Assembly (NCBI GenBank): GCA_947493535.1 | Contig: CANLRK010000002.1 | Location: forward strand, 248,001 to 312,000 | DNA length: 64,000 nt | Direction: 5' to 3' | Source of the DNA: an uncultured Flavobacteriaceae bacterium | Lineage (GTDB): Bacteria > Bacteroidota > Bacteroidia > Flavobacteriales > Flavobacteriaceae | Shown: one piece after another, positions 3,456-15,180 of the stretch | Position numbering within the stretch: the first letter of the stretch is position 1 | How the letters are laid out: each line of letters begins with the position of its first letter | The notes under the pieces: generated by a model | Database searches by the model: none | Seen by the model: the letters and a program-made list of their open reading frames with translations, nothing else | What the model was told of the DNA's origin: nothing | Translations under genes and position numbers: made by a program

Positions 3456-4886
3456 ATGTTATTTAATTCAATTGATTTTGCTGTCTTTTTACCAATAATT
3501 TTTATACTATATTGGTTTGTATGCAATAAGAATTTAAAACTTCAAAATAGTTTAGTATTACTAGCCAGTTATGTGTTTTATGGTTGGTGGGATTGGCGCT
3601 TTCTATCTTTAATAGCTTTCAGCACTTTAGTGGATTATTGCATAGGTTTAGCGTTGAATAGTACTGCCTACTCAAAAAGAAAGAAGTTATTATTAAGCTT
3701 AAGTTTACTAATTAATCTAGGTTTTTTGGGTTTTTTCAAGTACTATAATTTTTTTGTTGAAAGCTTTATAGATGCCTTTTCGCTTTTTGGTAAAAGCATC
3801 AAACCAAACACGTTGGATATTATTTTACCTGTTGGAATTAGTTTTTATACATTCCAAACCTTAAGTTATACTATTGATGTGTACCGCAAAAAACTGAAAC
3901 CAACAAAAGATATTATTGCTTTTGCCGCTTTTGTAAGTTTTTTTCCGCAATTAGTAGCTGGCCCCATAGAAAGAGCCACTAAATTATTACCGCAGTTTTA
4001 CAAAAAAAGAACATTCAACTATAATTTGGCGGTTTTAGGAATGCGCCAAATATTGTGGGGGTTGTTTAAAAAGATAGTTATTGCTGATAATTGTGCTCAA
4101 TACGCTAATGAAATTTTTAATGATTATGGTAGCCAATCTGGCAGTACCTTGTTTCTAGGAGCATTGTTTTTTACATTTCAAATCTATGGGGATTTTTCAG
4201 GGTACTCAGATATAGCAATAGGTATTTCACGTTTATTTGGGTTTGATTTAATGAAGAATTTTGCTTTTCCATACTTTTCAAGAGATATTGCTGAATTTTG
4301 GCGCCGTTGGCACATTTCTTTATCTACTTGGTTTAGAGACTATTTGTATATTCCATTGGGTGGTAGCCGTGGAGGAACATGGATAAAAGTAAAAAACACA
4401 TTTATTATTTTTTTGGTTAGCGGGTTCTGGCATGGTGCTAATTGGACTTTTGTAGTTTGGGGTGGTTTAAATGCACTTTATTTTTTACCTATCATGCTTA
4501 GAAATAAGAATAGGAAACATATAGAAATTGTAGCCCTACATACATTTTTACCAACACTTAAAGAAACAGGGCAGATGTTAAGCACTTTTGTTATGACAGT
4601 TTTTGCTTGGATATTTTTTAGGTCTGATACTATAAAATCTGCCTTAGAGTATATTTCTATTCTATGTAGTAAGTCATTAATTAGCTTGCCAAATATAAAA
4701 TCTAAATCAATACTTATACTAATTGTCTTTTTTATGTTAATTGAGTGGTTAGGAAGAAGAAATGAATTTGCTATAGAGAAAATACAACTAAAACAACCAT
4801 TACGTTGGGGATTTTATTTATTTTTAGTACTATTACTTGTTATTTTTAACGGAAAAGAACAAGAATTTATTTATTTCCAGTTTTAA
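3456..4886 (+). CDS. MBOAT family O-acyltransferase (AlgI-like)
   Basis: A 476-residue polytopic membrane protein with about ten or more hydrophobic segments. It carries the membrane-bound O-acyltransferase signatures RRWHISLSTWFRDYLYIPLGG and GFWHGANWTFVVWG. The two conserved histidines are H286 and H326, the second being the usual catalytic candidate. AlgI-type enzymes carry acyl (usually acetyl) groups across the inner membrane for O-acylation of exported polysaccharide. Its position inside the glycosyltransferase operon, one gene away from an SGNH-like protein at 5946-6839, supports O-acylation of this polymer. Length is normal for AlgI/PatA-like proteins. It is unlikely to be a DltB for teichoic acid, because this is a Gram-negative-type genome. 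Confidence 0.93.
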   Translation: MLFNSIDFAVFLPIIFILYWFVCNKNLKLQNSLVLLASYVFYGWWDWRFLSLIAFSTLVDYCIGLALNSTAYSKRKKLLLSLSLLINLGFLGFFKYYNFFVESFIDAFSLFGKSIKPNTLDIILPVGISFYTFQTLSYTIDVYRKKLKPTKDIIAFAAFVSFFPQLVAGPIERATKLLPQFYKKRTFNYNLAVLGMRQILWGLFKKIVIADNCAQYANEIFNDYGSQSGSTLFLGALFFTFQIYGDFSGYSDIAIGISRLFGFDLMKNFAFPYFSRDIAEFWRRWHISLSTWFRDYLYIPLGGSRGGTWIKVKNTFIIFLVSGFWHGANWTFVVWGGLNALYFLPIMLRNKNRKHIEIVALHTFLPTLKETGQMLSTFVMTVFAWIFFRSDTIKSALEYISILCSKSLISLPNIKSKSILILIVFFMLIEWLGRRNEFAIEKIQLKQPLRWGFYLFLVLLLVIFNGKEQEFIYFQF

Positions 4887-4910
4887 AATTAAACTTCTGT
4901 ATTACTTTAT

Positions 4911-5942
4911 ATGAATATATATTATCCCAAACAATATTATGACGCAAATGAAAAAGGGCAGTTATTTCCGTTGATTGGGTTTTTAGAACGAAAAAAAGCA
5001 AATAATCTTGAAACCGATTTTCGTATTGTTGATTCATTAAATTATGCTGAGGTAATTATACTACCTATGTCTTGGAACTATTACCTATCCAAAAATAGAT
5101 TGACTGAAGTAATAGAATTTATTAAGCAAATTAATGTTTTAGGAAAAAAAGTATATACATATAATGCTGGAGATAATGGAGTTAAAGTACCTTCCGGTTT
5201 AAATATTGTAGTTTTTAGAACATGTGGTTATGCTTCTCAAAGAACTCCACAAGAAACTATCATGCCTTTTTTTCTCACTGATCCATTGCAAGTTATTTTT
5301 GATAGAAGAACAATTATTAAACGTGACCATTCTAACATGCCTACGGTTGGATTTTGTGGGCAAGTAAACGATTCATGGTTAAATGCAATTAAGGAAGCAA
5401 CTAAGGTTGCAGTTAAAAACATATTGTATTACATAGGTGTAAAAAATGATTTACCTCAAAAAATACAGTCAACAAGTTTTAACAGGGCTAAAGTGTTGTC
5501 TTTTATTGAAAATGTAAACACGATAAAAAGCAATTTTATACGAAGGGATAAATATAGAGCTGGTGCAATTACTGAAGCTGATAGAAAAAAAACAACTTTA
5601 GAGTACTACCAAAACATGATTGAGTCAGATTATATTATATGTATCAGAGGAGCTGGTAATTTCTCTGTACGTTTATACGAAACCTTAGCTATGGGAAGAA
5701 TACCTGTATTTATTAATACTGACTGTATGCTACCTATAGATGATATATTACCTTGGAAAAAACATATGGTTTGGGTAGAATATAACGAACTAAATAACCT
5801 AGAAAATTTAATTTTAAAGCATTATAATAGTTTAGACGATAAGAGGTTAAACACTCTTTTTCAGGAGAATAGAAATATGTGGTTAACACATATGGGAATG
5901 CTAGATTTTTTTAAAAATAATTTTATTAAAAACGAAGGTTAA
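4911..5942 (+). CDS. Exostosin-like (GT47-type) glycosyltransferase
   Basis: A 343-residue protein whose C-terminal third has the exostosin/GT47 pattern: YYQNMIESDYIICIRGAGN, then FSVRLYETLAMGRIPVFIN and a D-x-x-LPIDD segment. This resembles the nucleotide-sugar site of eukaryotic exostosins and their bacterial relatives. There is no signal peptide or clear membrane segment, so it should act in the cytoplasm. It sits 24 bases after the MBOAT gene and 3 bases before the SGNH-like gene in the same operon. Assignment to the exostosin-like superfamily is by motif only; donor sugar unknown. Confidence 0.75.
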   Translation: MNIYYPKQYYDANEKGQLFPLIGFLERKKANNLETDFRIVDSLNYAEVIILPMSWNYYLSKNRLTEVIEFIKQINVLGKKVYTYNAGDNGVKVPSGLNIVVFRTCGYASQRTPQETIMPFFLTDPLQVIFDRRTIIKRDHSNMPTVGFCGQVNDSWLNAIKEATKVAVKNILYYIGVKNDLPQKIQSTSFNRAKVLSFIENVNTIKSNFIRRDKYRAGAITEADRKKTTLEYYQNMIESDYIICIRGAGNFSVRLYETLAMGRIPVFINTDCMLPIDDILPWKKHMVWVEYNELNNLENLILKHYNSLDDKRLNTLFQENRNMWLTHMGMLDFFKNNFIKNEG

Positions 5943-5945
5943 GTA

Positions 5946-6839
5946 ATGAAAAGGTTTTTAACTAAGGTGTTTGTTTTTTTTATATTTCTTATTGTTACCG
6001 ATATAATTGTAGGGCAATATATAAAGCAATTGCCCAATTTTGAAGTTGATGATAGATTAGAAAAAATATTAGAAGGAAAAATCAATTCAAATATTATAAT
6101 TACTGGTTCATCTGTTGGAGCTAGAGGAATATTAGCAGAAAAAATAACTGATGAAACTTCATTCTCAGCATATAATTTATCTTACCCTGGTTCCGACATT
6201 ACTTTTCATGAGTTTATTATAAAAAATTATATAGCCAATAATACGGTGCCTCAAAAAATATTATTAACAGTAGATGAGGTAATTTTTAAAGCAGATAGGA
6301 GTTTAAAATTTAGATTAGATAGATGTTATCCTTTATTAAAATATCCAGTTATTAAGAAAATAGTAGCTCATAAAGAACAAAAAAATAAATACTTAGCCAA
6401 ATACAGTAATTTATATATGTTTAAAAGAGAAATGTTAAAGGGAGTAAAGAAAAGGTTTTCAAAATACGATACTATTTGGGAAAATGGCTCTATGCCTTTA
6501 ACTTTTCAAAAGAAAGCTATAACTCAAGAGTTAAAGCAAAGTAAGCCATATAGTATTAATAATGAACTTAAATATAAAATAAAAGCCTTTAAAAACATTA
6601 TTAGCTTAGCCAAGGCACATAATATAGAGTTAGTTTTGGTTTTTCCTCCACAATATAAAATAATTAATGCTAGCTTTGTGAGCAGGCTTAAAGAAATTTA
6701 TCAAGGAAAATATGTGTACGTAGATAATCAAACCAAAGATTTTCAAGATAAGAAGTTGTTTTCTGATAAAGCCCATTTAAATATAAAAGGAGCTGAATTA
6801 TTTACAAAGCACATAATTAACAATTTAAAATTAAGGTGA
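5946..6839 (+). CDS. SGNH-like membrane-anchored protein, probable partner of the MBOAT acyltransferase
   Basis: A 297-residue protein with one N-terminal membrane segment (about residues 4-25) and a periplasmic remainder. Two features fit an SGNH/GDSL-like fold. An ITGSSVGARG block around residues 52-61 is in the place of the nucleophile serine. A C-terminal DKAHLNIKGAELF block has D274 and H277 spaced as in the D-x-x-H catalytic motif. Proteins of this shape (AlgJ, AlgX, DltD, PatB) accept or transfer the acyl group delivered by an MBOAT protein, and one is encoded two genes upstream. The gene starts 3 bases after the exostosin-like gene and overlaps the next by 4 bases (GTGA). Overall similarity was judged by motif only, so the functional call is inference. 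Confidence 0.68.
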   Translation: MKRFLTKVFVFFIFLIVTDIIVGQYIKQLPNFEVDDRLEKILEGKINSNIIITGSSVGARGILAEKITDETSFSAYNLSYPGSDITFHEFIIKNYIANNTVPQKILLTVDEVIFKADRSLKFRLDRCYPLLKYPVIKKIVAHKEQKNKYLAKYSNLYMFKREMLKGVKKRFSKYDTIWENGSMPLTFQKKAITQELKQSKPYSINNELKYKIKAFKNIISLAKAHNIELVLVFPPQYKIINASFVSRLKEIYQGKYVYVDNQTKDFQDKKLFSDKAHLNIKGAELFTKHIINNLKLR

Positions 6840-8011
6840 GTAATCCAAAAACAATTATCCATTTTTCTCAAGATTTTACTAAAGGAAAGCCTCAATTAGG
6901 AGGGTATAGTAGGATATATAATATTTGTTCAGATGCTAATAGACACATTATTTATACTATTTCAACTGAAATAACTGCTGTTGAAGAGTATTTTATTGAT
7001 GCAATAAAGGTTGTTCAAATACCTGTTAAAGAGAGACCAAGCGGATTGTTTAATCAGTTTAAATTGTATAAACCTATTGGAAGACAAATTGTGAATCACC
7101 TTCAAATTACTCAAGTAATTCCTGATTTGTTTTTTGGGCATTCACATCAAGGAAATTTTTTGATTTTACAATATGTTAAAAACAAGTTATTTCCTAAAAA
7201 GAAAATTTTATGGGAAGCCAATGGAATTGGTGGCTGTCCTAAAGTAAATGGAACATTAAAACAACGGCTAGCTAATAAAATACAATATTTATTACAAGGC
7301 TATGTGTTTAAAAAGTGTGATGTAATTGTTGCGCAAACGCTTCAAAGCAAAGAGTTTATAAGCAAAGAGTTTAGTGTTAATGTAAAAAAAATTACCGTTA
7401 TACCTAATGCAATAGTTACAGTTAACAATAATAGAGAGGGAGTAAGGTTAAAAAGAGAGAATAAGAAACCTAAAATATTGTGTTTTGGTCTTTTTGATCA
7501 GTTAAACGGAATCCCATTTTTATTGGAAGTAATAAAAGAAAATAAACTTAGTGAAATTGAATTTGTTTTTGCGGGTTTTGGCAAGTATGTTAAGGAAGTT
7601 GAAAATTTAGCAAGTATGGCTTCTAATATTACTTTTTTAGGACAACTACCTTATAAAAAAATGATGGAAAAACTTCCTGAACATGATTTTTTAATTATAC
7701 CGCGATTAAATACATTAGGATCCCAATTGTATATACCAACTAAATTATTAGAAGGAATGTATTTAGGTGTTGTGCCTATATGTGCTGATGTAGAAGGAAT
7801 GACATGTGTAGTTACTAATAATGAAACGGGATTAGTTTTTAAAAGTGCTAGCAAAGAAGAATTAATTACTACCTTAAATAAGGTTAGAAAAATAAATCAA
7901 AGTACATATGCGAACTTGCAAAATAATGCAATAGAAAAAGTAGCTAAAGAGTATAATTGGATAAATAATTTTAAAAAATTGAATTTACTGTATTTAACTG
8001 CGTCTAATTAA
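6836..8011 (+). CDS. Glycosyltransferase family 4-like protein
   Basis: A 391-residue GT-B-type glycosyltransferase. Recognisable parts are the central FGHSHQGNFLILQYV and EANGIGG segments, an IPNAIV linker, and a C-terminal donor half with FAGFGKYVKEVE, FLGQLPYKKMMEKLPEHDFLIIPR and a K-LLEGMYLGVVPICADVEGM block in place of the classical E-x7-E loop. The only sensible start is a GTG whose last bases overlap the upstream stop (GTGA), a coupling often seen in operons. It probably adds one sugar of the repeat unit. Specificity is unknown. Confidence 0.82.
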   Translation: MSNPKTIIHFSQDFTKGKPQLGGYSRIYNICSDANRHIIYTISTEITAVEEYFIDAIKVVQIPVKERPSGLFNQFKLYKPIGRQIVNHLQITQVIPDLFFGHSHQGNFLILQYVKNKLFPKKKILWEANGIGGCPKVNGTLKQRLANKIQYLLQGYVFKKCDVIVAQTLQSKEFISKEFSVNVKKITVIPNAIVTVNNNREGVRLKRENKKPKILCFGLFDQLNGIPFLLEVIKENKLSEIEFVFAGFGKYVKEVENLASMASNITFLGQLPYKKMMEKLPEHDFLIIPRLNTLGSQLYIPTKLLEGMYLGVVPICADVEGMTCVVTNNETGLVFKSASKEELITTLNKVRKINQSTYANLQNNAIEKVAKEYNWINNFKKLNLLYLTASN

Positions 8012-8022
8012 AATAAAAACAA

Positions 8023-9075
8023 TTGAAAGTACTACAAGTAATTGATAAACTAAATGTAGGAGGAGCTGAAAAAGTATTGGTAAACACAGCCAATATTTTT
8101 AAGGAACATGAACATGATATATCTGTACTGTGCCTTTTATCATCATCAGTGTTAGATGAACAATTACATGCTAGTATTCCGAAATTATATCTTAACAGAG
8201 GGTTTAAGTATAATCCTATAAAGTTAGCAAAGCTTTATGCTATTTTAAATAAATATGATGTAGTGCATGTACACTGCAGACATGTGATGCGCTATGTAGG
8301 CTTGTTGTTGTTTTTACCACAATTTTTAATTAGGTTCAAAGTTGTGTTTCATGATCATTATGGTAAAATTAAGGATGATAAAACTATAGATGCATTATTA
8401 AAAAAGCAACTATGTTATATTAATGCTTACGTAGGGGTGAGTAATGAGTTGGTAAAATGGTTTAAAAGTATTAACAATAATGTAAAATCACACCTATTAA
8501 GTAATATTGTTAGAAACAATAAGACAACAATACCAATGGATATAGAAGAAGAATTTATAAACCTAGTAGCCATAGGAAATTTTAGAAAGCAAAAAAACTA
8601 TGAGTTCGCATTACTAGTATTGTCAGTTTTACCACAAAAATATACTCTAACAATTATTGGAGGTATAGTTGAAAGAGAATATTACACGGACATAATAAAA
8701 CTTGCCACTAAATTAAACCTTACTAGTAGGCTGAAAATAGAACATACAATTACTGATGTTACAGCTGAGTTAGTCAAATATCATTTAGCTATTCATACAG
8801 CATCTTCTGAAACAGGACCACTAGTAGCTATTGAGTACTTAGCAGCTCAGTTGCCGTTTGTGATGTTTAATACGGGAGAAGTGGCACAACAAATACAACC
8901 GGAACTTTCTGATTTTATAATGGAGGATGATAATGTTTTACTTTGGAAAGACAAAATAAACCACATCCTGTTACATAAACATAAGTATAGAAGTAAAATT
9001 AATAGTATATTTCAACAAAATTTTTCAGAAGAAAATTATTACCATAAATGCCTAACCATTTATCAAAATTTGTGA
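8023..9075 (+). CDS. Glycosyltransferase family 4 protein
   Basis: A 350-residue GT4 enzyme with a classic N-terminus, KVLQVIDKLNVGGAEKVL, in which the glycine-rich GGAE loop begins the acceptor domain. The C-terminal half has a degenerate donor site, ASSETGPLVAIEYLAAQLP, where the E-x7-E spacing is kept. This N-terminus is conserved in the family up to its first residue, so the start must be the TTG at 8023, an uncommon initiation codon. The 3' end overlaps the next gene by 28 bases. It probably acts on the lipid-linked oligosaccharide; substrate unknown. Confidence 0.85.
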   Translation: MKVLQVIDKLNVGGAEKVLVNTANIFKEHEHDISVLCLLSSSVLDEQLHASIPKLYLNRGFKYNPIKLAKLYAILNKYDVVHVHCRHVMRYVGLLLFLPQFLIRFKVVFHDHYGKIKDDKTIDALLKKQLCYINAYVGVSNELVKWFKSINNNVKSHLLSNIVRNNKTTIPMDIEEEFINLVAIGNFRKQKNYEFALLVLSVLPQKYTLTIIGGIVEREYYTDIIKLATKLNLTSRLKIEHTITDVTAELVKYHLAIHTASSETGPLVAIEYLAAQLPFVMFNTGEVAQQIQPELSDFIMEDDNVLLWKDKINHILLHKHKYRSKINSIFQQNFSEENYYHKCLTIYQNL

Positions 9076-10184
9076 CAAACTTTTTGGTGATATCCGACAC
9101 TGCTATGTCGGATGGTAAAGATGGTGTATATGCCTTTGGCCCTGTGGTTAAAGAATTAGAGTCGTTACAATTTCCTAATAAAATCACCTGGATTGGTTTT
9201 AGAAAAAAGAATAATGATTCGTTTGTGAAAATTAATGATAAACGCATACATACGGTAGCGTTACCTGCATCTGGAGGGAAAAGTTTTTTTGATAAAATAA
9301 TGATTTTGGTATATTACCCAATGTATTTTTTTATCATATTAAATCAATGCTGTAAAGCCGATAAAATTCATGTTAGAGCGCCTTCTAATCCAGCAGTAAT
9401 TGCAATGTTATTATCCTATTTATTTCCTGGGAAAAGGTTTTGGTTTAAGTATGCAGGAAACTGGAAGGGAAAAGCTTCACCATTTTATAAATTTCAGAGA
9501 AATTTATTAGCTAAGTTAGGTGACAATTCAAAAATTACGGTAAATGGAACATGGGATAATCAGCCTAAAAACGTTTATGGTTTTGAAAACCCTTGCTTAG
9601 ATGATAAGGACAGAAAATCTGGAGAATTAATTTGTAAAACTAAACAGTTAACTGAAAAAATAAATTACTGTTTTGTTGGAGGAATGAATGAGAACAAAGG
9701 GGTAGAGAAAATAATTAATGTTCTTGAAACACTTGAGATAGAGAAGATAGGTACATTTCATTTTGTAGGAGGAGGGCCTCTTTTAGAGCAAATTAAAAAA
9801 AGAGCAAGTAAAATAAACTGTACAACTAAATTTCATGGTTTTTTAGCAAAAGATGAAGTAGTTAAAGTATACAATGAAAGCCAATTTATTGTGTTGCCTT
9901 CAGAGAGTGAAGGTTTTCCTAAAGTAATAGGAGAAGCTATGAATTATGGATGTGTTCCTATAGTATCTAAAATTTCGTGTATAGATCAATATATAAAAGA
10001 TGGAGAGAACGGTTTTTTGATTTACCCTATAAATCAAACTGCTATTGCGAATATATTTAAAAAATCTTTTTGTATAGATAAAAAAAAATATCAGCAGATA
10101 ATTAGAGAAAATTATTTGTTGGCTGAAAAGTTTACATATAACTATTATGAGCAACAAATAACAACTAAAATATTTACAAGTTAA
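9048..10184 (+). CDS. Glycosyltransferase family 4 protein
   Basis: A 378-residue GT-B glycosyltransferase. The N-terminal half has a GKDGVYAFGPVVKELESL acceptor-side helix. The C-terminal half has FVGGMNENKGVEKIINVLE, HFVGGGPLLEQIKK and the donor-site signature SESEGFPKVIGEAMNYG with E-x7-E spacing. The ATG at 9048 lies within the last codons of the preceding glycosyltransferase (28-base overlap), so these two genes are translated from one message. Family call is strong; the sugar and linkage are not predictable. Confidence 0.87.
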   Translation: MPNHLSKFVTNFLVISDTAMSDGKDGVYAFGPVVKELESLQFPNKITWIGFRKKNNDSFVKINDKRIHTVALPASGGKSFFDKIMILVYYPMYFFIILNQCCKADKIHVRAPSNPAVIAMLLSYLFPGKRFWFKYAGNWKGKASPFYKFQRNLLAKLGDNSKITVNGTWDNQPKNVYGFENPCLDDKDRKSGELICKTKQLTEKINYCFVGGMNENKGVEKIINVLETLEIEKIGTFHFVGGGPLLEQIKKRASKINCTTKFHGFLAKDEVVKVYNESQFIVLPSESEGFPKVIGEAMNYGCVPIVSKISCIDQYIKDGENGFLIYPINQTAIANIFKKSFCIDKKKYQQIIRENYLLAEKFTYNYYEQQITTKIFTS

Positions 10185-10196
10185 TTATAGTACTAA

Positions 10197-11567
10197 GTGA
10201 GTTTCTTTAAAGATGATAATCAAAAAATAAAATTAATTCTATTACATATACTAATAGGATTAGTGGTTTTTTTAATAAAACCCACATCAGTATTGATTAA
10301 TTTATTAATGATTGCATTTTTTGTGTTGTTTGTTCTTAAAACAAAAGACAAAACTTATGCAATACTCATATCGTGTGCATATATAGCTATGAGTGATGTT
10401 TTTTTTCGAATGACCAAAGGGTTAGTTTTTTATGAACTACACAAGTATTTATTAATAGTTTTTGTTTTAATAGGTTTTGCATTTCAATTTAATAAAACAA
10501 GGGGGAAAATTTATTTGTTATATATTGGTTTATTGTTAATTGGAATCATTTTTACAAATTACGATTATGAAGATGAAGTAAGAAAAATGATTGCATTTAA
10601 TTTAGGAGGACCTGTTTCTTTAGGGATTGTAGCATTGTATTTTTATAAAAAGAAAATACCTTTATCTAAATTAGTTAATGTACTTTTTTATGGTTTATTG
10701 CCAGTAGTATCTTTAACAGTTTATTTATTTTTATTCACGCCAAGTGTAAAAGATGTTGTTACAGGAACACACTCAAATTTCACGACTTCAGGCGGGTTTG
10801 GTCCTAATCAAGTAGCTACAGTATTAGGAGCTGGAATGTTTATATTAATTAGTAGACTTGTTTTAAGTAAGCCCAGAAATCTCTTGTTTTTTATAGAATT
10901 GTTTCTATTAATATTGGTCACCTATCGTGGTTTAGTAACTTTTTCTAGAGGAGGAATTATTACGGGTATTATAGCTGGATTATTTTTCATATTATTTACA
11001 TATAATAAGGCCAAACTATCAATGCGAGTCAAGTTAATAAAAGCAATGTTTGTATTTGTGTTTTTAGGTGTTGTTATTTGGGGGTATGCATTAGTGACAA
11101 CTTCAGGGTTAATTGAAAACAGATACGCTAATAAGAATGCTATTGGTCAAGAGAAAAAAGATATTTCTACAGGTAGATCAACGTTAATACAAACAGAATT
11201 AGAAGCTTTTTTAGAGCACCCTTTTGTGGGGATAGGAGTTGGGAAAAATAAACAATACCGTTATGAAAATACTGGTATTGAGGCGGCATCTCATAATGAA
11301 ATTAGTAGATTGTTAGCGGAACATGGTACGTTAGGTATAATTGCTTTTTTTATTATATTTTTTACGCCTCTTATTTTCAGATTAGAAAATAAAAACAATA
11401 TATATTTCTATTCTTTCTTTTTATTATGGTTTTTAACTATAAACCATTCATCTATGCGTATCGCCTTTCCATCGTTTATTTATGGTTTAGCGTTATTAGA
11501 TGTAACTTATGAAACCAAAAATAAAAAAGTAGCTAAATCACAAATTCAATCAAAGCATTCAAGTTAA
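10197..11567 (+). CDS. O-antigen polymerase/ligase family membrane protein (Wzy/WaaL-like)
   Basis: A 456-residue protein with about ten to twelve hydrophobic segments. Its large extracytoplasmic loop near the C-terminus contains STGRSTLIQTELEAFLEHP, a GIGVG turn and ASHNEISRLLAEHGTLG. This arrangement (R-rich loop, then the HNE segment) is typical of the Wzy_C/WaaL domain. In a locus of this kind it most probably polymerises undecaprenyl-linked repeat units (Wzy), although a ligase role cannot be excluded. It starts with GTG 12 bases after the preceding gene and ends directly against the next ATG. No Wzx flippase or Wzz chain-length regulator is present in the visible part of the locus. Confidence 0.85.
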   Translation: MSFFKDDNQKIKLILLHILIGLVVFLIKPTSVLINLLMIAFFVLFVLKTKDKTYAILISCAYIAMSDVFFRMTKGLVFYELHKYLLIVFVLIGFAFQFNKTRGKIYLLYIGLLLIGIIFTNYDYEDEVRKMIAFNLGGPVSLGIVALYFYKKKIPLSKLVNVLFYGLLPVVSLTVYLFLFTPSVKDVVTGTHSNFTTSGGFGPNQVATVLGAGMFILISRLVLSKPRNLLFFIELFLLILVTYRGLVTFSRGGIITGIIAGLFFILFTYNKAKLSMRVKLIKAMFVFVFLGVVIWGYALVTTSGLIENRYANKNAIGQEKKDISTGRSTLIQTELEAFLEHPFVGIGVGKNKQYRYENTGIEAASHNEISRLLAEHGTLGIIAFFIIFFTPLIFRLENKNNIYFYSFFLLWFLTINHSSMRIAFPSFIYGLALLDVTYETKNKKVAKSQIQSKHSS

Positions 11568-12627: not shown

Positions 12628-14007
12628 ATGTCAAGCAAGGCTAACATACATTTTGAATTGTCTGAAAGAAAACTTCTTTTACGTTTTTTAGACGTTACTT
12701 TAGTGTTATTAGGCCTACATTTGGTTGGATCTGTATTTGAATTTGATTATTTTATTATTAGTAAGGAGAAATGGGTTTGGTCTCTTTTACTAGCTTTTTA
12801 TATCCTGTTTTTTGGAACCATCTTTGAAATCTATAATTTAAAAAAGGCAAGTGATTTTTTTAATATTTTAAAAAGTATAGTTATTACTTGTTCTGTGGCG
12901 GTTTTAGTTTATTTACTAACACCTTTTTTTACCCCTGAATTACCAGTTAGTAGAATACAGATATTGTTTTTTTATCTGTCAATAGTATTCTCTATGGCTT
13001 TAGGAAGATTTGCATACATTTTCTTTATTAACTCTCCAATTTTTAAGAAAAATGTTATTTTAATTGCAGAAGGAACTCTTTTTGAAGAAATAGAAAAAGA
13101 GTTAGCAATAGCTGATGCTAATTACAAAATTAGGTATTTTATCAATACCGATGATACATCTCCTAAAACAAAAAACATAAAGGAAATTTCATCAGGTAAG
13201 TTAAAAGATATAGTACAGAAAGGCGTATATGAAATTGTGGTAACAACTAATTCAAAGTTTTCATCGGCAACATTATATGCTGATTTGCTTGATGTTTTTA
13301 ATAATGGTGCAGTTATAAAAGAATATGCACAAGTATATGAAAACCTAACAGGAAGAGTATATGTTAGTTTTAAAGACAACGAATACTATAAACAGTTTCC
13401 TTTTAGTGATCATAATGTAAAACCATTGTATCGCTTAATTCATAGATTTTTAGATATAATTATAAGTCTTCTTGGTCTAGTGGCATTATTGTTATTATTA
13501 CCCCTTATTTTGCCAATAAATTTTTTTGCTAATAAGGGACCTTTATTTTATACTCAAGAAAGAGTAGGGAAAAAAGGAAAGAGGTTTAAAATATTTAAAC
13601 TTCGTAGTATGGTGGTAAATGCTGAAAAAACTGGGGCGGTATGGGCAGTAGCAAATGATGCTAGGGTAACCAAGTTTGGTAAATTTTTAAGAAAGACTAG
13701 GTTAGATGAAGTACCTCAATTTATAAATATTCTAAAGGGAGAAATGAGTGTTATTGGTCCAAGACCTGAACGACCAATTTTTGTTGAACAATTAGCAAAA
13801 GAAATACCTTTTTACCCAACTAGACATGTTGTTAAACCTGGTTTAACAGGATGGGCACAAGTAAACACTTCGTATGGAGCATCAGTTGAAGATAGCTTAC
13901 TAAAGCTTCAATATGATTTATATTATATTAAGCACAGAAATATTTTCTTAGATTTAAATATTGCAATAAAGACTCTGAGTACGGTAATATTTTTTAGAGG
14001 ACAGTAG
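12628..14007 (+). CDS. Exopolysaccharide biosynthesis polyprenyl glycosylphosphotransferase (WcaJ/ExoY-type)
   Basis: A 459-residue protein of the PHPT family. Four N-terminal membrane segments (about residues 15-130) are followed by a Rossmann-like soluble region (about 140-255), a further hydrophobic hairpin near 275-300, and the C-terminal bacterial sugar transferase domain. The catalytic domain shows FKLRSMVVNAE, the TRLDEVPQFINIL motif with the D360-E361 pair, GEMSVIGPRPERP and KPGLTGWAQVN. Such enzymes move a sugar-1-phosphate from a UDP-sugar onto undecaprenyl phosphate, the first step of repeat-unit assembly. It is the last gene of the cluster and converges on the DUF4105 gene with only three bases between the stops. 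The sugar (glucose, galactose or an amino sugar) cannot be told. Confidence 0.93.
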   Translation: MSSKANIHFELSERKLLLRFLDVTLVLLGLHLVGSVFEFDYFIISKEKWVWSLLLAFYILFFGTIFEIYNLKKASDFFNILKSIVITCSVAVLVYLLTPFFTPELPVSRIQILFFYLSIVFSMALGRFAYIFFINSPIFKKNVILIAEGTLFEEIEKELAIADANYKIRYFINTDDTSPKTKNIKEISSGKLKDIVQKGVYEIVVTTNSKFSSATLYADLLDVFNNGAVIKEYAQVYENLTGRVYVSFKDNEYYKQFPFSDHNVKPLYRLIHRFLDIIISLLGLVALLLLLPLILPINFFANKGPLFYTQERVGKKGKRFKIFKLRSMVVNAEKTGAVWAVANDARVTKFGKFLRKTRLDEVPQFINILKGEMSVIGPRPERPIFVEQLAKEIPFYPTRHVVKPGLTGWAQVNTSYGASVEDSLLKLQYDLYYIKHRNIFLDLNIAIKTLSTVIFFRGQ

Positions 14008-14010
14008 TTC

Positions 14011-15180
14011 CTATTTGAAATAGGAAAACAAATAGCAATATCTTATAAATAATGCTATAAAAAATGGAAGCATAGCAAGTGGGAATTCTTCTATTTTAAA
14101 AATCCAGATAACAGCAAGCATAACCATAAAAAAAACTAAGCTAGTAACGTATCTTTTTAACCAGATACTAATTTTGTTACTTATTAGTATAAATGCTATT
14201 ATTAAATTGCTAGGAAAAGCCCATAGAATATTGTAGTTATTAGCTGTAGTTTGATGATTAGTAGCAAACCATAATAGCAGTAAAAGTACACCAGTAACTC
14301 CTGTACAGAAGAATAGTATAAAGTCTAAAATTTTTGTTCTTTTTGTTGATTTAAGATCATAATAAGTTATGAATATGATTATCATAGCTAATCCTAAAAA
14401 AACAAATATTGGACTAGTTATAAAATTTGAAGTAACAATGTTGTTTTGGTTTTTTGAGATAAGTGTGTTTTCTTTTAAAACAAGTTGGTTTTTATTAATC
14501 GTAGCATTATCAAAAGCTTTGTAAATATACTCTGGCAAAAACTGGTACTCATCTTTTGTGGCAGGTTTGTCAATAACTGAACCTAAGGCAATATTAATAC
14601 CTACATTACCCCAAGTATTGTAATGGACATTAGCGTTAATTAATTGGCGTAATGTGTAAGTACTAGTTATATGTTGATTGCTGTACCTAACCTGGCCAGG
14701 TAAGGCTTTATCAATAACATAACGTATTTTTGTAGCACAATTATTATAAAAAAAATCGTATTGATAGGATGCGTTTTCAGGTTGTGCATTAGTTTCTAAA
14801 AAAGCAATCAATTTCTTTTTTTGTTCATTATTGAGGTTTAAAACTTGTTCATGAACATTCCTGTTTTCATAAGTGTATTGTTGAAAAAAATAATCATAAC
14901 GTGTGCGACCGAGTTTATAGAGTAGTTTTCCCTTTGCGAAATTAGTATAAAAATTAGGGGCTGAAAAGTCGAAAACACCATAATTATAAACTATATCTGT
15001 ATGATTGTATATGTCGCGAATTCTAAAAGCACTATGACCAAATTTACTATAAAGCTCTTCTCCAGAACCGCAGGTTAAAACACTTATTTCAACATTATCT
15101 GAATAGCTAATATGTTGAGTAAAAGATAAATTACTGAATAATAACAGTAAACAAATGACAAATGCTTTAAGAAATTTCAA
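14011..15180 (-). CDS. DUF4105 domain protein, membrane-anchored
   Basis: A 389-residue envelope protein: signal peptide or first membrane segment (about 1-21), a periplasmic domain with the conserved LTCGSGEELYSKFGHSAFRIRD opening and a later NNCATKIRYVID block, then four to five C-terminal membrane helices (about 255-385). The conserved histidine and cysteine are the residues expected to matter in DUF4105, which has been linked to lipoprotein N-acyltransferase-like folds; the function here is unproven. The only in-frame start is TTG at 15180, because a stop lies three codons upstream. It starts 6 bases after the PorV2-like gene, so the two form an operon. Confidence 0.78.
   Translation of the reverse strand: MKFLKAFVICLLLLFSNLSFTQHISYSDNVEISVLTCGSGEELYSKFGHSAFRIRDIYNHTDIVYNYGVFDFSAPNFYTNFAKGKLLYKLGRTRYDYFFQQYTYENRNVHEQVLNLNNEQKKKLIAFLETNAQPENASYQYDFFYNNCATKIRYVIDKALPGQVRYSNQHITSTYTLRQLINANVHYNTWGNVGINIALGSVIDKPATKDEYQFLPEYIYKAFDNATINKNQLVLKENTLISKNQNNIVTSNFITSPIFVFLGLAMIIIFITYYDLKSTKRTKILDFILFFCTGVTGVLLLLLWFATNHQTTANNYNILWAFPSNLIIAFILISNKISIWLKRYVTSLVFFMVMLAVIWIFKIEEFPLAMLPFFIALFIRYCYLFSYFK

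Follow-up and report, generated by a model that had tools for sequence, protein, structure and literature searches.

A pair of genes within a polysaccharide cluster of an uncultured Flavobacteriaceae bacterium very probably encodes an MBOAT–SGNH O-acyltransferase that acts on the surface polysaccharide produced by that cluster. The pair lies in a stretch of 64,000 nucleotides, which was analysed as a whole and is called the window here. It joins members of two families: an MBOAT protein with conserved catalytic histidines and an acyl-shuttle motif, and a partner with a predicted SGNH fold and conserved catalytic residues, and the two genes are paired across genomes. A first-pass annotation of this DNA had compared them to AlgI/AlgJ-X, PatA/PatB and DltB/DltD and suggested that they O-acylate the polymer, a reading now supported by the SGNH fold of the partner, the register of its triad and the presence of an MBOAT gene in 60 of the 60 loci checked, mostly directly beside the partner gene. 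The pair almost certainly belongs to this known MBOAT–SGNH kind, with the partner as a divergent member. The acyl group transferred is probably acetyl, by analogy with PatA/PatB, and the likeliest acceptor is the cluster's own polysaccharide, the position of the genes being what points to it.

Gene order and the MBOAT protein

Three open reading frames were found on the plus strand where they had been placed before, encoding proteins of 476, 343 and 297 amino acids. They are closely packed, with 24 bases between the MBOAT gene and the GT47-like gene and 3 bases between the GT47-like gene and the SGNH gene, whose 3' end overlaps by 4 bases the gene starting at 6836. The same gene run contains an asparagine-synthase gene, six additional glycosyltransferase genes, a Wzy_C protein and a sugar phosphotransferase. 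The gene described as exostosin-like, between the MBOAT and its partner, indeed matches the GT47 family. The features used below are as follows; row counts refer to the 64-row alignment of partner proteins.

3456–4886, plus strand: MBOAT O-acyltransferase, 476 aa (PF03062, E 2.7e-27; 96.4 bits against a curated cut-off of 27)
4311–4313, plus strand: codon of H286, which aligns with DltB His289 (DltB residue number counted along the alignment)
4431–4433, plus strand: codon of H326, which aligns with DltB His336 (DltB residue number again counted along the alignment)
4866–4883, plus strand: C-terminal FIYFQF, residues 471–476 with Y473, corresponding to the FXYXXF acyl-shuttle motif described in PMC12148441
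4911–5942, plus strand: GT47-like (exostosin) glycosyltransferase, which splits the pair (PF03016, E 6.6e-11)
5946–6839, plus strand: membrane-anchored SGNH-fold partner, 297 aa (predicted model, fold matches and profile match to DltD)
6105–6113, plus strand: block I GSS, residues 54–56, with S56 the likely nucleophile (S56 in 64 of 64 rows, S55 in 52 of 64)
6765–6776, plus strand: block V D274-x-x-H277 (H277 in every one of the 64 rows; at position 274, 43 rows have D, 19 have N and 2 have S)
10197–11567, plus strand: Wzy_C-type polymerase/ligase gene, cluster context (PF04932, E 1.8e-18)
12628–14007, plus strand: initiating sugar phosphotransferase gene, cluster context (PF02397, E 3.7e-63)

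The window also contains, on the minus strand at 14011–15180, a gene whose product resembles the lipoprotein N-acyltransferase Lnb (E 3.8e-85), although its score of 286 bits is short of the cut-off of 550.

The identification of the first protein as an AlgI-type MBOAT with H286 and H326 was upheld by the PF03062 match and by reading both histidines back from the DNA. Its closest solved sequence is DltB (PDB sequence search, E 2e-24), which also provides its best NCBIfam model (E 2.7e-41), yet at 142 bits the score is well short of the cut-off of 375. His289 and His336 of DltB are named as active residues (PMC11035591), and the corresponding H286 and H326 are invariant across 12 aligned MBOATs. 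The C-terminal FIYFQF shuttle motif, a feature absent from the first-pass annotation, is kept in all 12 of these proteins, in 20 of 20 MBOATs beside the weaker loci described below, and in 13 of 13 MBOAT open reading frames at the named-record loci. PatA is reported to acetylate the tyrosine of its C-terminal FXYXXF motif, and PatB to take the acetyl group from such a peptide (PMC12148441).

Fold and family of the partner protein

The partner had been thought divergent enough to remain hypothetical in annotation pipelines, and sequence searches agreed. Its best match in a Pfam scan reached only E 0.57, a PDB sequence search with the protein alone gave no match up to E 10, and the best NCBIfam match (TIGR02171) scored 23 bits where the cut-off is 544. 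A single-sequence scan of the genome contig collection returned no relative, nor did the plasmid collection. Matches were obtained in 11 of the 59 genomes covered by the first search, which included the source genome, and a profile of the relatives, applied at E 1e-5, matched 101 of 249 genomes of the bacterial family (source genome counted). Nine of the ten named records with relatives of the partner are, we assume, from Flavobacteriaceae, and the tenth is a metagenome bin named Thalassovita. Two further places, L010 (E 0.0014) and L014 (E 0.006), were dropped as relatives, their open reading frames encoding what we take to be ferrochelatase-like proteins.

An AlphaFold model of the partner, built from 12 sequences, had a pLDDT of 84.2 and a pTM of 0.80 and begins with an N-terminal helix (residues 2–28). 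When the model was compared with the PDB using Foldseek, 15 matches were found at E 0.001 or better; 12 were named GDSL/SGNH-type enzymes, C. jejuni PatB included, and the remaining three were rows of one designed scaffold. The predominance of GDSL/SGNH-type matches is in agreement with the SGNH-like fold that had been proposed for 5946–6839. The top VIA match was the designed scaffold 9hi5 (Z 14.5), and the VIA matches included TesA (5tic; Z 13.7, 156 aligned, 2.7 Å), NgPatB (7tjb; Z 13.3, 171 aligned, 3.9 Å) and CjPatB (8tlb; Z 13.0, 168 aligned, 4.0 Å); DltD, AlgJ and AlgX were absent among the 50 VIA matches listed, which does not count against any of them. The end points of the 8tlb alignment (46 with 128, and 295 with 328) put S56, D274 and H277 on CjPatB positions 138, 307 and 310, a register that is taken from end points, not distances, and that assumes a gap-free stretch between ends and motifs and an entry numbered as in the paper. 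The catalytic residues of CjPatB are Ser138, Asp307 and His310 (PMC12148441). The suggested grouping of S55/S56 with D274 and H277 is retained as a triad register for S56; S55 is not invariant.

Searching PDB sequences with the relatives' profile retrieved two DltD entries (E 1.5e-5 and 0.0012), making DltD the closest solved structure to the partner by sequence profile, and the alignment shows both the GSS block and the D-x-x-H order. The DltD model itself (PF04914) was not matched by the partner, and two relatives reached 21.8 and 19.7 bits, below the cut-off of 22.7. DUF459, the PatB family, was matched by neither the partner nor its relatives, and the ALGX model was touched by one of 12 relatives, at 0.019. 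The model matched by more relatives than any other was DUF1574 (PF07611; four of 11); in a second set it was matched by three of 12, tied with PF19040, and when 10 relatives were scanned singly three matched, one of them above the cut-off (41.8 against 29.1 bits). The window's own partner had no DUF1574 match. When PF07611 was searched at E 1e-10, none of 198 genomes from the phylum gave a match, and the model was silent in all 14 controls as well. DUF1574 is listed in PMC9487903 without a known activity or structure.

With DltB and DltD as the closest solved relatives of the two proteins, and the MBOAT matching DltB best among NCBIfam models, the pair might be a Dlt-like system that carries D-alanine from a DltC-type carrier onto the polymer. 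However, no DltC was found at E 0.01 in the source genome, a draft that is 99.63% complete, whereas DltC was found in 5 of 14 control genomes; the three DltA matches in the source genome are all far below the cut-off of 559.85, the best scoring 58.7 bits; and the DltB score of the MBOAT falls short as noted above. The shuttle motif is, moreover, fused to the MBOAT, whereas Dlt systems have a separate DltX (PMC12148441). With no DltC match, low DltA scores and a fused motif, we consider D-alanylation extremely unlikely.

The fold matches also bear on whether the partner is a transferase at all, since esterases and lipases make up many of the best of them: the SGNH protein could be an esterase, removing acyl groups that the MBOAT has put in place. 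Against this stand its pairing throughout with a shuttle-motif MBOAT (see below), the DltD profile match, and the recognition of no second SGNH-family gene, able to supply the transferase instead, among the Pfam-scanned cluster genes in the window. We regard a trimming esterase as very unlikely indeed, and treat the partner in what follows as the transferase of the MBOAT–SGNH pair.

Conserved residues and gene pairing in relatives

Reading the DNA again confirmed both motifs noted earlier in the partner, GSS at 54–56 and D274-x-x-H277. In the 64-row alignment, the window row counted, G54, S56, P235 and H277 are present in all rows and N77 in 62. Since these four residues are kept throughout although some relatives are merely 19–25% identical, the motifs are more than chance. 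An 11-protein alignment gave G54, S56, N77, P235, F272, H277, L278, N279 and G282 as invariants. The active serine had been left as either S55 or S56; the invariance of S56 favours the latter, while S55 varies. Left out of the 64 rows were the duplicate copies L002, L003, L007, L008, L011, L012 and L013, the window copies L001 and L021, the rejected places L010 and L014, and L045, which is 100% identical to L040. L054 is represented by the open reading frame at 8856–9737, the scan's own match being that at 7890–8789, directly after the MBOAT gene.

The aspartate is less constant. Scored as D or not D, position 274 requires a minimum of five changes on a quick tree of the 64 rows. This tree leaves 20 of its 61 inner branches open and brings long branches together. 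As the tree is poorly resolved, we limit the conclusion to position 274 having probably changed more than once. A Streptomyces SGNH lipase has Asn in place of the block V Asp and keeps its activity when this residue is changed to Ala (PMC10779480), and for many CE2 esterases a Ser-His dyad has been proposed (PMC9487903). In the light of these precedents, the variation at position 274 is not evidence against catalysis. Position 110, to which we infer block III to correspond, is D in 41 of the 64 rows and N in one; the Asn that is usual for block III seems to have been substituted there.

The co-occurrence with MBOAT genes expected in related genomes was found at every locus checked. In the first search, which was blind to MBOATs, 10 distinct SGNH-like open reading frames outside the window, in nine genomes, all stood beside an MBOAT gene. 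Likewise, 30 of 30 profile-search loci (one per genome, the window's own included, six of them repeating first-search places) had an MBOAT gene inside their 1.5-kb flanks. Among weaker loci, hand-picked from profile matches (E 5e-25 to 4e-8) and not drawn at random, all 20 had the MBOAT gene immediately upstream, separated by -41 to 6 bases, and at the named-record loci the matched gene followed an MBOAT gene in 10 of 10. The SGNH gene precedes the MBOAT gene in L015, L019 and L031. An extra copy of the family, L048:15647–16606, has no MBOAT gene beside it in view, the locus ending soon after; at another, L054:8856–9737, a second SGNH-like gene stands between the copy and the MBOAT gene. None of the other 59 loci examined has a match to the window's GT47-like gene. 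The points that speak against reading the two genes as an O-acyltransferase pair are the GT47-like gene between them, the L048 copy, the N or S at position 274 in 21 of 64 rows and the seeming replacement of the block III Asn.

Two loci, L051:6561–11281 and L054:4055–9737, each hold one cluster with two MBOAT genes and SGNH-like genes between or after them. Such clusters perhaps serve two acylations of one polymer.

Proposed acyl transfer and its acceptor

The order of acyl transfers can be inferred from PatA/PatB and DltB/DltX/DltD. On the PatA/PatB route the acyl group passes from acyl-CoA to the MBOAT tyrosine, then to the SGNH serine and finally to the polymer (PMC12148441), and residues for every step are present in the window's pair. 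By analogy, the MBOAT would take an acyl group, probably acetyl, from cytoplasmic acyl-CoA, and H326 (and H286) would load it on Y473 of the FIYFQF motif on the periplasmic side. S56 in the membrane-anchored partner would then receive the group from the motif, with H277, helped by D274, activating this serine, and would transfer it to a hydroxyl of the polysaccharide.

The pair resembles PatA/PatB in having an MBOAT with a fused C-terminal FXYXXF motif and a separate membrane-anchored SGNH protein (PMC12148441), with Ser, Asp and His in matching order and register. Unlike PatB, the partner has no DUF459 match, lies in a polysaccharide cluster and belongs to a family in which the Asp varies. 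DltB and DltD are the closest solved sequences for both proteins and share the GSS block and D-x-x-H order, but here the MBOAT itself carries the shuttle motif that DltX would supply, no DltC was found and no DltA match exceeded the cut-off. AlgI with AlgJ/AlgX is likewise an MBOAT alongside a periplasmic SGNH protein, encoded within a polysaccharide cluster (PMC9487903), whereas the ALGX model is touched by a single relative of the partner among the 12 compared. Finally, some relatives match DUF1574, a member of the SGNH clan, but the window's own partner does not.

Sharing its shuttle motif and fold with PatA/PatB, the pair could be a PatA/PatB system that acylates peptidoglycan and whose place in the polysaccharide cluster is accidental. 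However, the source genome encodes elsewhere (contig C3, L059:4973–9406) a second MBOAT ending in FIYFQF, with two GDSL-like proteins before it, one of which matches DUF459 (33.8 bits against a cut-off of 27.2). The window's partner has no such match, and its gene and that of the MBOAT are tightly spaced within the polysaccharide cluster. The presence of this second MBOAT with two GDSL-like proteins, one of the DUF459 family, makes peptidoglycan a less likely acceptor for the window's pair; the L059 proteins are the likelier peptidoglycan system, and we think it very unlikely that the window's pair fills this role. Acylation of the cluster's own polysaccharide is preferred on the position of the genes, and an ester decoration on the surface polysaccharide is predicted.

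More tentatively, the partners may make up an unrecognised DUF1574-like SGNH acyltransferase family, common in the bacterial family, that works with shuttle-motif MBOATs and relies on Ser and His for catalysis, with the block V Asp optional and the block III Asn replaced; we hold this to be possible, if somewhat short of probable. If true, this would be the first function assigned to the DUF1574 group within the SGNH clan. The assignment of the pair to the MBOAT–SGNH kind allows annotation to name a widespread 'hypothetical' partner protein, and the natural Asp-to-Asn variants provide a means to ask whether a complete triad is required for SGNH acyl transfer. The literature searched contained no paper joining MBOAT, DltD and polysaccharide in Bacteroidetes, and a sulfotransferase search gave nothing on the pair among the papers listed.

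Upstream of the window in the source genome, at L055:9127–12964 and L055:138–1664 (L055 base 18001 being window base 1), are genes for an inositol-phosphatase-like protein, an APS kinase, a PAPS-reductase-domain protein, an EF-Tu-type GTPase and two sulfotransferases, among glycosyltransferase-like genes. We take the first four to be a CysQ/C/D/N-like set, and the polysaccharide of the cluster may be sulfated in addition to being acylated.
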